Translations under genes and position numbers: made by a program
Source of the DNA: a virus
Strand: one strand, 5' to 3'
DNA length: 23,306 bases
Virus record (IMG/VR): IMGVR_UViG_3300036850_000259
Location: 1 to 23,306 of that record
The notes under the pieces: generated by a model
Databases searched by the model: none
What the model saw: the letters and a program-made list of their open reading frames with translations, nothing else
What the model was told of the DNA's origin: nothing
Part shown: piece by piece, positions 2,655 through 9,893 of the stretch
Position numbering within the stretch: position 1 is the first letter of the stretch
How the letters are laid out: every line of letters starts with the position of its first letter

Positions 2655-2813
2655 TGTGCGTCCCTGTGCGTCCCGTGCGTCCCGTGTCCGCCGGGACACA
2701 CTCCTCGTTAAGTGCGTCCCAGTCCCCCGCTCCCTTACGGGCGGGGACGCACTACGGGTGGACCCTGACCCACTCCCGGAGAGGGGTGTGTGTCCCATGA
2801 GAAGGGACGCACA
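2655..2813 (+). repeat. Iteron-like array of TGTGCGTCCC, direct and inverted; candidate origin or operator
   Basis: The non-coding stretch after the helicase gene contains TGTGCGTCCC at 2655-2664 and 2665-2674 in exact tandem. Further copies are GTGCGTCCC at 2675-2683, a degenerate inverted copy GGGACACAC at 2693-2701, AGTGCGTCCC at 2711-2720, and its exact inverse GGGACGCACT at 2744-2753. TGTGTGTCCC at 2787-2796 faces GGGACGCACA at 2804-2813. The inverted pairs can form hairpins. Reiterated sites of about one helical turn beside a helicase gene are typical of phage and plasmid origins, but operators for a regulator would look similar. The hairpins could also attenuate transcription. Confidence 0.7.
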
Positions 2814-2841
2814 TGAAGTGCTCGGACTGGAGCAGCCGTGA
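2797..2841 (+). CDS. Possible 14-codon leader peptide
   Basis: ATG 2797 opens a 14-codon frame encoding MRRDAHEVLGLEQP. Its stop, TGA 2839-2841, overlaps the GTG start of the next gene as GTGA, the same coupling used by certain genes in this operon. A purine-rich GGAGAGGGG lies about ten bases upstream. The frame runs across the last inverted repeat of the array (2787-2813), so translation could open or close that hairpin. It is too short for codon statistics to decide; chance is a real alternative. Confidence 0.25.
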   Translation: MRRDAHEVLGLEQP

Positions 2842-3014
2842 CGCATCGCTGGGGCTGCAGCCTTTGCCCCGAGGAGGGCGACGGTGGGGCGGAGGGCGCG
2901 CTGGAGCACCTGCGGCTCGTCCACCCCGAGGTGTACGGCGACGGCCCCGAGCGCTGGCCCGACGGGAGCCTCGTGGTCAGCGACGACACGCTCGAGCCCG
3001 AGGAGTTCCTCTGA
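2838..3014 (+). CDS. Small C2H2-type zinc-finger protein (58 aa)
   Basis: Start GTG 2838 has GGAG five bases upstream and overlaps the stop of a possible leader frame. The protein has C7-x2-C10-x13-H24-x4-H29 ('CSLC' then 'HLRLVH'), a recognisable C2H2 finger. It is followed by an acidic tail ending 'TLEPEEFL'. A single finger of this sort in a 58-residue protein is common among actinobacteriophage accessory genes. It may bind DNA or a host protein; the sequence does not say which. It is the first complete gene after the repeat array and therefore heads the accessory operon. Confidence 0.6.
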   Translation: MTHRWGCSLCPEEGDGGAEGALEHLRLVHPEVYGDGPERWPDGSLVVSDDTLEPEEFL

Positions 3015-5329: not shown

Positions 5330-5823
5330 GACTCTGCCGCTGCCGGTCACGGAAGAGGGCCGAGCTCCGCTGCCCGCTCTGCGGCGGCTACGTCGCCATC
5401 GGGCGCCTGGCCCCGCCCAACCACGTCGCCCTCCTGGCCGGCTCCTTGGCCAAGAGCGGCGAGGCCCTGGTCAACGACTACCGCTGGGCGCACGAGGAGG
5501 GCCTCGGGCCCGCTCGGCGGGGGCAGATCGGCCGGGGCTCGGATACCGCCGACCCCACGGGCGGGACGGTGGCCGACGAGAGGAAGGCGAGCCTGCGAGA
5601 GCACCTCCGCCTCGCCGGCCGGGCCCTGGCCCTGGCCTGCTACCACGTGGCGGTGGCCCGGGAGGCCGTAAAGGACGGCCTCTCGGCGGTGGACGGGGGC
5701 GGCGAGGACCACACCCCGGCGCCCTACCACGACGTGATCCCCGAGGGGCGGCCCGACCTGGCCGAGTCGCACGCCGCCCTTGAGCGGCGCCTGGCTCGAG
5801 GCGAAGGGTGGGGCCAGGCGTGA
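5326..5823 (+). CDS. Zinc ribbon plus helical protein, diverged tandem paralogue
   Basis: A 165-residue protein from GTG 5326 overlapping the preceding stop. It starts VRLCRCRSRKRAELRC and continues 'PLCGGYVAIGRLAPPNHVALL', so the ribbon is C4/C6 with a later CxxCGGY. Helical segments follow: 'LLAGSLAKSGEALVNDYRWAH' and 'LREHLRLAGRALALACYHVAV'. Both match the layout of the gene before it. An insertion of roughly 45 residues, rich in Gly, Asp and Thr, separates the two helices. The C-terminal 35 residues are unique to this copy. No enzyme family is recognised. Its end overlaps the GTG start of the methyltransferase. Confidence 0.6.
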   Translation: MRLCRCRSRKRAELRCPLCGGYVAIGRLAPPNHVALLAGSLAKSGEALVNDYRWAHEEGLGPARRGQIGRGSDTADPTGGTVADERKASLREHLRLAGRALALACYHVAVAREAVKDGLSAVDGGGEDHTPAPYHDVIPEGRPDLAESHAALERRLARGEGWGQA

Positions 5824-6524
5824 TCACCGTGGGCTCCCTGTTCAGCGGTATCGGCGGCCTCGAGCTCGGCCTCGAGTGGGCGGGGATGCGGGTGATCTGG
5901 CAGGCGGAGACCGACCCCTACGCCTCCCGGGTCCTCGCCAAGCACTGGCCTGATGTGCCCAACCTGGGCGACGTGACGAAGGTGGAGTGGAGCGATGTCG
6001 AACGACCCGAGCTCGTCTGCGGCGGCTTCCCCTGTCAGGACATCTCCCATGCCCACACGAACGGACAACGGCGAGGGCTCGATGGCGAGAAGTCCGGACT
6101 CTGGGGGTGCTTCCGAGAAGCCGTCGAGCGGCTCGGGCCCCGGTGGGTTGTCGTCGAGAACGTCGAGGCGTGGCGTTGTTGGGTGCCCAGCGTGCGGGGC
6201 GACCTTGCTCGACTCGGATACGCCAGCGTGCCGCTGGAGTTGTCGGCCGGTTCGTTCGGCGCTGCCCATCGGCGCCCACGATGCTTTGTGGTGGCCCACG
6301 CCGACGGCGACGGCGAACCACTGCTCGCCCTCCATGCAGAAGTGGGAGAGCTACGCCCGCTTCCAGTCGGTAGTGGGGACTGGGGGGTTCCCCCACCCGG
6401 AGGTCTTCGAGTGGCTGATGGGGTTGCCCACCGAGTGGACCGACTGCGCTGCCTAGGCAACGCCGTGGTGCCCCAGGTCGCTCAGTGGATAGGCGAAAGA
6501 ATCATCCGTGCCGCGAACGCCTGA
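5820..6524 (+). CDS. C5-cytosine DNA methyltransferase (Dcm-like), compact
   Basis: A 234-residue protein transferring methyl from S-adenosylmethionine to cytosine C5, probably to protect phage DNA from restriction. Motif I is 'LFSGIGGLELGL' (residues 7-18). Motif IV is 'GGFPCQDIS' with catalytic C72. Motif VI is E113-N-V. Motif VIII is 'AAHRRPRCF' near 151-154. Motif X-like 'RCLGNAVVPQVAQWIG' begins near 210. Only about 50 residues lie between motifs VIII and IX, so the target-recognition region is very short. GTG 5820 overlapping the preceding stop is the preferred start; GTG 5808 is possible. Between 6289 and 6456 the +1 frame also reads like a methyltransferase C-terminus (see findings), so an indel or recoding cannot be excluded. 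Confidence 0.88.
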   Translation: MITVGSLFSGIGGLELGLEWAGMRVIWQAETDPYASRVLAKHWPDVPNLGDVTKVEWSDVERPELVCGGFPCQDISHAHTNGQRRGLDGEKSGLWGCFREAVERLGPRWVVVENVEAWRCWVPSVRGDLARLGYASVPLELSAGSFGAAHRRPRCFVVAHADGDGEPLLALHAEVGELRPLPVGSGDWGVPPPGGLRVADGVAHRVDRLRCLGNAVVPQVAQWIGERIIRAANA

Positions 6525-7906: not shown

Positions 7907-8365
7907 GTGGCCGGGATGGGCCCGCCGCCGAAGGGCGACGGGCAGCGCCGCCGACGCAACCCGCCGCTGGCCAACACGATCCGGCTCCCGGCCGAGGGTC
8001 GGAAGGGGCCGACGCCGAAGTGGCCGTTCCCGCGGCCGTCGCCTCGGGAGAGGCAGCTGTGGGCGAAGCTCTGGGCGACGCCGATGGCGGTGGCGTGGGA
8101 GCGGCTCGGGTGGGGGGAGCAGGTCGCCCGCTACGTGCGGGTGCTGGTGGTGGCGGAGCAGCCGAACCTGTCGATCCCGGCGCTGGCCGAGGCCCGCCAC
8201 CTCGAGGATCGGCTGGGCCTGAACCCGCTGGCGCTGGTGCGTCTGCGGTGGGAGATCGTGGCCGACGAGGTGGCGGAGGCACGGCAGGAGCGTGAGCAGC
8301 CAGCCCGGCGCTTGAAGGCGGTCGATCCTGTTGCAAAGGTGGCGAGGCCCAAGCGAGCCGGGTGA
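7907..8365 (+). CDS. terS: Terminase small subunit
   Basis: A 152-residue protein that would recognise the packaging site and deliver DNA to the large subunit. It starts 'GMGPPPKGDGQRRRRNPP', a basic Pro-rich N-terminus. The family block follows: 'LWAKLWATPMAVAWERLGW', 'VARYVRVLVVAEQ', 'LAEARHLEDRLGLNPLALV', 'RLRWEIVADEVAEA'. 'AEARHLEDRLGLNPLAL' is characteristic of small terminases in actinobacteriophages and related prophages. GTG 7907 follows GGGGA at about eleven bases; ATG 7916, three codons on, is the alternative. The gene overlaps the large subunit by 35 bases if that gene starts at TTG 8331. Confidence 0.82.
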   Translation: MAGMGPPPKGDGQRRRRNPPLANTIRLPAEGRKGPTPKWPFPRPSPRERQLWAKLWATPMAVAWERLGWGEQVARYVRVLVVAEQPNLSIPALAEARHLEDRLGLNPLALVRLRWEIVADEVAEARQEREQPARRLKAVDPVAKVARPKRAG

Positions 8366-9893
8366 GTTCCCCACCCTCGGCTACCAGGTCGGGGACTTCA
8401 TCGAGGCGCACTGCGCCATCCCCGACGGCGACTACATGGGTCAGCCCTATCTCCTCATCGACGAGATGTGGCGTTTCCTGTTGTGGCACTACCGGCTGGA
8501 CCCGGAGACGGGCCGGTTCGTGTACCGCCGGTCGCAGCTCAAGCGGCCGCAGAAGTGGGGCAAGGGTCCGTTCTCGGCGGGGATCATCTGCGCCGAAGCG
8601 GAGGGCCCGGTGCTCTTCGACGGGTGGGACGCCAACGGGGAGCCGGTAGGGCGGCCGTGGGCGACTCCCTGGATCCAGGTGACGGCAGCCTCGGAGGGCC
8701 AGACCGACAACGTGTGGCGGGCGCTGGGCCCGATGATCGAGGAGGGCGACCTGGGCTGGGTCATCACCGACACGGGGGAGACCCGGATCAACCTGCGGGG
8801 CGGTGGCCGGATCGAGCCGGTGACGAGCTCGGCCAAGTCCCGCCTCGGCCAGCGGATCACGTTCGCCGTCCAGGACGAGACCCACAGCTGGCTGAAGGAG
8901 AACGGCGGTTGGAAGCTGGCCGACACGCAGCGCCGGAACCTGGCCGGCATGGGAGGCCGGTCGATCGAGACGACGAACGCCTGGGACCCGGCGGAGGAGT
9001 CCGTCGCCCAGGTGACGGCGCAGTACACCGGCACCGACATCTACCGGGACCACGGGGCGGAGCCGAAGGGGAGCATCCGCAACAAGCGGGAGCTGCGCCG
9101 CTGTCTGAAGCAGGCGTACGGCGGCTCGTGGTGGGTGGACCTCGAACGGATCGAGGCGGAGGTCGACGAGCTCGCCCAGCGGGACCCGGCGCAGGCGGAG
9201 CGGTACTACCTGAACCGGGTGGTGGCTGGTGCCGGCCAGGCGTTCGACATGGACCGGTGGAGGAAGCTCGCTCTGGGGCTGGCGATCCCGACCGGGGTGG
9301 ACCAGCTGGTGACGGTCGGCTTCGACGGGGCCCGGTTCGTGGACGCCACCGCCCTGGTGGCCACCCACGTGGAACTCGGCCATCAGTGGCCGCTCGGTGT
9401 GTGGGAGCGGTCGCCGGGCGCCGGTGACGACTGGGAGGTGTCCGAGGCGGAGGTGACCGAGGCCCTCGAGGAGGCCTTCGACACCTTCAACGTGTGGCGG
9501 GTGTACTGCAACCCGGCGCACTGGGGATCGACGGTGGACGCCTGGGCGGGCCGGTGGGGGGAGAAGCGGGTCATCCGCTGGTGGACGAACCGCAACAAGC
9601 AGATGTGCTGGGCGCTGCGGGGCTACGTCGACGCCCAGGCTGCCCGGGAGATGACCCACAGCGGCGACGAGACGTTCACCCGCCACGTTACCAATGCCCG
9701 AAAAAAGATCCACCCGGGGATCCGGGACGACAAGGGACGGCCGATGTGGACTCTGCAGAAGGAACGGGAGAGCTCGACGAACTGCATCGACGCCGCCCAG
9801 GCCGGCTGCCTGTCGTGGGAGGCGAGGGGTGACGCTGTCGCTTCCGGGGTGCTGTCGGAGCAGGCGCCCGAGCCGATGCTCGCATGGACCTGA
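8331..9893 (+). CDS. terL: Terminase large subunit (packaging ATPase/nuclease)
   Basis: A 520-residue motor that pumps DNA into the prohead and cuts concatemers. The start is most likely TTG 8331. No ATG or GTG occurs before residue about 36, and the block 'SEPGEFPTLGYQV' at residues 8-20 is where homologues begin. The ATPase has a deviant Walker A at residues 72-80 ('RPQKWGKGP') and Walker B with D182-E183 ('FAVQDETHSW'). The nuclease domain starts near D332 in 'LVTVGFDGARFVDATALVA' and continues through 'WRVYCNPAHWGSTVDAW'. 'SSTNCIDAAQAGCLSWEA' is the usual C-terminal region. Length is normal. It overlaps the small subunit before it and the membrane protein after it. Confidence 0.92.
   Translation: MQRWRGPSEPGEFPTLGYQVGDFIEAHCAIPDGDYMGQPYLLIDEMWRFLLWHYRLDPETGRFVYRRSQLKRPQKWGKGPFSAGIICAEAEGPVLFDGWDANGEPVGRPWATPWIQVTAASEGQTDNVWRALGPMIEEGDLGWVITDTGETRINLRGGGRIEPVTSSAKSRLGQRITFAVQDETHSWLKENGGWKLADTQRRNLAGMGGRSIETTNAWDPAEESVAQVTAQYTGTDIYRDHGAEPKGSIRNKRELRRCLKQAYGGSWWVDLERIEAEVDELAQRDPAQAERYYLNRVVAGAGQAFDMDRWRKLALGLAIPTGVDQLVTVGFDGARFVDATALVATHVELGHQWPLGVWERSPGAGDDWEVSEAEVTEALEEAFDTFNVWRVYCNPAHWGSTVDAWAGRWGEKRVIRWWTNRNKQMCWALRGYVDAQAAREMTHSGDETFTRHVTNARKKIHPGIRDDKGRPMWTLQKERESSTNCIDAAQAGCLSWEARGDAVASGVLSEQAPEPMLAWT

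Follow-up and report, generated by a model that had tools for sequence, protein, structure and literature searches.

Recruitment of DnaB helicases to origins normally depends on initiators and loaders that are separate proteins. In the alpha protein of phage P4, a C-terminal winged helix on the replicative helicase binds iterons. The helicases SaPI Rep and SCCmec Cch2 likewise have a C-terminal domain that recognises iterons situated immediately downstream of their own genes; these repeats are the known or putative origin, and binding of Cch2 to the direct repeats has been demonstrated (PMC7581432). In a review that discusses helicases fused to origin-binding domains, the examples are SV40 LTag and papilloma E1, both SF3 (PMC3401641).

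The viral DNA analysed here, a contig of 23,306 bp (the window), and its relatives share with SaPI Rep and Cch2 the combination of a helicase with a predicted C-terminal DNA-binding domain and short repeats directly downstream. However, the SaPI Rep and Cch2 helicases are of the DUF927 or D5 type, whereas the phage protein has a DnaB fold with a DnaB N-terminal domain. Because its core is DnaB-like/AAA_25, the phage system would work like SaPI Rep and Cch2 without being a homologous member of that group, and its repeat unit differs in being hypervariable, with a residue code that can be traced. P4 alpha has a similar architecture but is a primase plus SF3 helicase. In the pRN1 replicon an essential stem-loop region also lies directly downstream of the gene for the winged-helix replication protein ORF904, but this is an SF3 helicase with a prim-pol and no iterons were found there (PMC4234260). 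In the PLE system, as here, the DNA-binding domain of RepA and the origin covary and swap as a module, although RepA is a separate initiator rather than a helicase and its iterons are about 30 bp long, unlike the 9-bp units of the phages (PMC8263062).

The gene preceding the array (1200-2654, + strand) encodes P0001, a replicative helicase of 484 aa with a DnaB-like N-terminal domain, a RecA-type ATPase core and a C-terminal winged helix. Pfam matches were to the DnaB N-terminal domain and AAA_25, the PHROG match was to the DnaB-like replicative helicase, and the structure model (pLDDT 89.9) had DnaB as its best PDB fold matches; the DnaB N-terminal domain and RecA-type core thus recovered by Pfam, PHROG and PDB folds make P0001 a DnaB-type helicase. 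Protein searches with the sequence of P0001 or P0002 alone gave no new relatives, which were found by alignment-based searches. The winged helix comprises residues 405-484 (2412-2651, + strand), with modelled helices at 416-428, 434-440 and 445-457 and wing strands at 461-465 and 471-475. It resembles the DNA-binding domains of MarR, ArsR and AspA with weak E-values (0.01 at best), and weak single E-values are usual for a domain as small as a winged helix. The specificity residues indicated by covariation are G438, A445, T446 and R449 in the window helicase. In the model, helix 2 contains residue 438, and the opening turns of helix 3, where bases are usually touched by winged helices, contain residues 445, 446 and 449.

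The 157 bp following the helicase stop codon contain six exact copies of the 9-bp core unit GTGCGTCCC, and two further copies carry one mismatch. Iterons 1-3 (2656-2664, 2666-2674 and 2675-2683, all exact and on the + strand) are arranged head-to-tail with spacings of 10 and 9 bp, approximately one helical turn, and are followed by iteron 4 (2693-2701), an inverted one-mismatch copy read as GTGTGTCCC on the - strand. Iteron 5 (2712-2720, +, exact) forms the left arm of a central hairpin-forming inverted repeat (2711-2753, unstranded; 15-nt arms with 87% complementarity, separated by 13 nt), which also contains the exact inverted iteron 6 (2744-2752, -); its stem is imperfect in the window itself. 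A second inverted pair (2788-2812) consists of iteron 7 (2788-2796, +), again GTGTGTCCC with one mismatch, and the exact inverted iteron 8 (2804-2812, -), which adjoins an ATG at 2813. The pattern scan thus bears out the array, its placement and the three direct copies at helical-turn spacing described by the first-pass annotation; the two inverted pairs are also present, but its layout has to be amended by the additional inverted near-copy at 2693-2701 after the direct copies. When the whole contig was scanned, all six exact GTGCGTCCC matches were in the array and none elsewhere, so that the scattered copies named in advance as contrary evidence were not seen; the reversed pattern, used as a control in the same scan, gave no matches. 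In 4,000 segments of 159 bp simulated with a Markov model, the highest count reached by any 9-mer was three, against the six copies observed.

Arrays of this kind were recovered in other viral contigs by scans blind to gene content. When two adjacent units were searched as GTGCGTCCCNGTGCGTCCC, only two other contigs (L007 and L008) were found, both with the array directly behind a helicase 36-39% identical to that of the window; in L008 the helicase gene stops at 1630, and the first base of the array is 1661. The second scan, for three copies of CCTCGTCCC, returned 29 stretches, and all 31 arrays (these 29 together with L007 and L008) are located directly after a homologous DnaB-fold helicase gene on the same strand. 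Microcystis phage MinS1 has the same layout, with ACCTCGTCCC as its unit, behind a helicase that is 40% identical. Helicase alignment found hundreds of relatives, of which 80 were kept per search, and nearly all of those kept carry an array of this kind. In relatives found by the helicase alone, the segment downstream of the helicase was richer in repeated 8-mers than any other segment of the locus at 57 of 78 loci, and several of the exceptions have the array slightly upstream, within the open frame. The array lies inside the helicase open frame, after the winged helix, in L156, L190, L191 and L197, and the iterons may therefore encode a C-terminal tail in these phages. The search for the same unit at the same place in related phages, which the first-pass annotation had proposed, accordingly found the place kept and the unit sequence varying by phage. 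A scan of genome contigs for three GTGCGTCCC copies yielded unrelated tandem repeats, none of them beside a helicase homologue, and the GTGCGTCCC copies spaced by multiples of 9 bp in other viral contigs (L009-L016 and L019) resemble repeats within coding sequence that have no relation to the array.

Other repeats were seen in more remote groups. A related group of lake phages (L257-L307) carries the iterons ACTTGACCGA and ACCGATCC together with a different winged-helix sequence, and in more distant phages (L223, L225 and L226) different repeats occur where the helicase gene ends or after it: ACCGGTTCA in Dagobah, TATCGGCA near the end of the record in P8625, and AGATCACG/CTGAGAAA in Leaf. In MinS1 the annotated CDS UIU47017 (7473-7667 in our locus L141, 297-491 in MZ923504.1) almost wholly overlaps the iteron array and is probably not a real gene. 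MinS1 also carries an Lsr2-family gene (3487-4698 in L141; also in MZ923504.1). It was reported as a Microcystis phage, with Nocardioides and other actinobacterial entries among the best hits tabulated in its paper (PMC8876498), and its genome looks like that of an actinobacterial phage; the helicase is unmentioned in the main text of that paper.

Within one phage all copies agree, but the unit differs from phage to phage. Besides GTGCGTCCC and CCTCGTCCC, the units CCGTGTCCC, CCTCGCCCC, CCCTTTCCC, CCATTTCCC, CCAGTTCCC, CTAGTTCCC, ATGGTTCCC and GTGGTTCCC were observed; their 3' CCC hardly changes, whereas the six bases ahead of it are variable. The arrays of 77 loci contain 5 to 16 copies (median 9), mostly 10-11 bp apart when oriented alike, and both orientations occur in all 77. 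A perfect stem of at least 8 pairs was present in 68 of 76 relatives, against 7 of 76 shuffles.

Covariation was computed for every helicase column against every unit position in 44 representatives, with the RecA columns as a control for shared ancestry; unit positions were numbered backwards from n1, the base preceding CCC. A script set the registers; loci with an ambiguous register, as well as the ACTTGACCGA and ACCGATCC groups, were excluded by hand, and the registers of L377 and L161 were corrected ahead of the tree test. The best column for n4 was residue 438 (z 6.4; RecA maximum 2.9), and residue 449 was best for both n3 (z 8.4; RecA maximum 3.6) and n2 (z 8.0; RecA maximum 3.5). At n1 the winged-helix columns 444 and 445 were slightly ahead of a RecA column (6.7 vs 5.7), and n6 and n5 gave no winged-helix signal in the 44 representatives; the code is therefore best for the middle of the unit. 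R449 accompanies CG in 24 of 25 representatives and TT or GT in none of ten, E438 accompanies T at n4 in 18 of 20, and K or R at 438 accompanies G at n4 in 9 of 17. On independent pairs of a tree built from RecA only, CG and R449 changed together in 9 of 10 cases and oppositely in none (p 0.004), and T at n4 changed with E438 in 8.4 of 11 (about 8 to 0, p 0.008); for G at n4 with K/R438 this test was low in power. The Gly438 of the window is unexplained by the code, since L144 and L162 have the window's unit with Glu438.

L253 and L185 match at 253 of 254 RecA residues, yet the bases ahead of CCC in their units are CCTCGT and CCAGTT, respectively, and seven winged-helix sites, among them 438, 445 and 449, are different between the two. 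For pairs with at least 85% RecA identity, a difference at residues 438, 445 and 449 was present in 43 of the 44 whose units differ and in 4 of the 104 that share a unit, a count that is descriptive because the pairs overlap. Winged helix and array thus form a cassette whose two parts move jointly. Their adjacency means that linkage inflates the association and could locally produce joint movement, but it does not account for the reappearance of identical residue-base matches in lineages whose helicases share 35-40% identity. Repeat sequence and helicase tail change together across dozens of related phages, in a code that is partly readable. Because the unit bases covary with winged-helix residues and little with RecA, the helicase itself very probably binds the array.

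We consider it probable, with good confidence, that the array is a replication origin of about eight iterons bound by the helicase encoded directly upstream. The alternative proposed alongside it by the first-pass annotation was a multi-site operator, at which the helicase or another regulator would bind to control the downstream operon without the array being an origin. The location between two genes, with the last inverted pair abutting the ATG, would suit such an operator, but the downstream genes vary (the 44 representatives fall into 20 shared-ORF groups, the largest of 18) and the helicase is always upstream, which makes this reading less likely. Moreover, a promoter scan, weak as such scans are for actinobacterial phages, found no sigma-70-like promoter, and in several phages the array lies within the open frame after the winged helix. 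We therefore regard the operator as unlikely.

It is considerably less likely that the array acts as RNA, its transcribed hairpins serving to terminate or attenuate transcription or to control translation, perhaps together with the 14-codon leader at 2797-2841. The inverted pairs are hairpin-capable and stems are kept in relatives, but no Rfam match and no terminator-like site (stem plus T-run) was found, and neither direct repeats at helical-turn spacing nor covariation with a DNA-binding domain fits a role in RNA. The suggested link to translation through the leader also loses ground, as the nearest relative, L142, has no counterpart of it. The 14-codon frame shares bases with the last inverted pair and ends in a stop that overlaps the GTG of an ORF at 2838-3014 (58 aa, with a Cys-containing start). 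A WhiB protein, which the first-pass annotation had placed nearby, was not detected by Pfam among the window ORFs tested, a subset of all ORFs. Further downstream of the array the window carries a DNA methyltransferase gene (5808-6524, PHROG 363).

A packaging site (cos or pac) bound by the small terminase is very improbable: L008 and MinS1 do have a small-terminase-like gene, judged by eye, downstream of the array, but the large terminase gene of the window (8331-9893) is more than 5 kb away, and it is the helicase residues that track the unit changes. The least credible reading is a functionless minisatellite, for although unrelated genomes hold similar 9-mer tandem repeats, the fixed position, the two orientations and the concerted unit changes matched by helicase residues speak against neutral repeats.

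The array is thus most likely a replication origin with the helicase as its own initiator, a reading based on the matching arrangement of SaPI Rep and Cch2. One helicase subunit would bind each iteron with its C-terminal winged helix, in which residue 438 in helix 2 and residues 445, 446 and 449 at the start of the recognition helix would read the bases that vary ahead of the constant CCC. With direct copies spaced by one helical turn and inverted copies beyond them round the hairpin, the array may gather subunits in two orientations, and the DnaB-fold ring would then assemble on opened DNA with no separate initiator and perhaps no loader. In the window no clear A+T-rich unwinding element was seen, and the G+C content of the array is slightly lower than that of its flanks (0.597 vs 0.621). 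The iteron origin read by the winged-helix tail, as envisaged by the first-pass annotation, is strongly supported by conservation, position and the covariation of the tail, but the GC skew change expected at the array was not seen: skew was uninformative both in the window and averaged over relatives, with no switch at the array, and the downstream minus upstream difference was positive in 36 of 64.

What is new is a helicase of the DnaB type, not SF3 or AAA+, with a putative origin reader of its own and an exchangeable specificity cassette; we found no description of these arrays in the open-access literature, which does not in itself prove absence. The chances appear about even that this represents a phage replicon of wide occurrence, in which a ring helicase of the DnaB type recognises the origin by itself, without separate initiator or loader, and recognition helix and iterons form an exchangeable, fast-diversifying specificity cassette. 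Such diversification perhaps serves to avoid cross-firing, satellites or origin-directed nucleases. If true, initiation would need a single protein, a DnaB-fold helicase that has its origin reader built in, and such a minimal system would lend itself to the question of how the DnaB ring loads. In many uncultured phages the probable origin can be located by the array from the sequence only, and direct, quantitative predictions of binding follow from the residue-base code.
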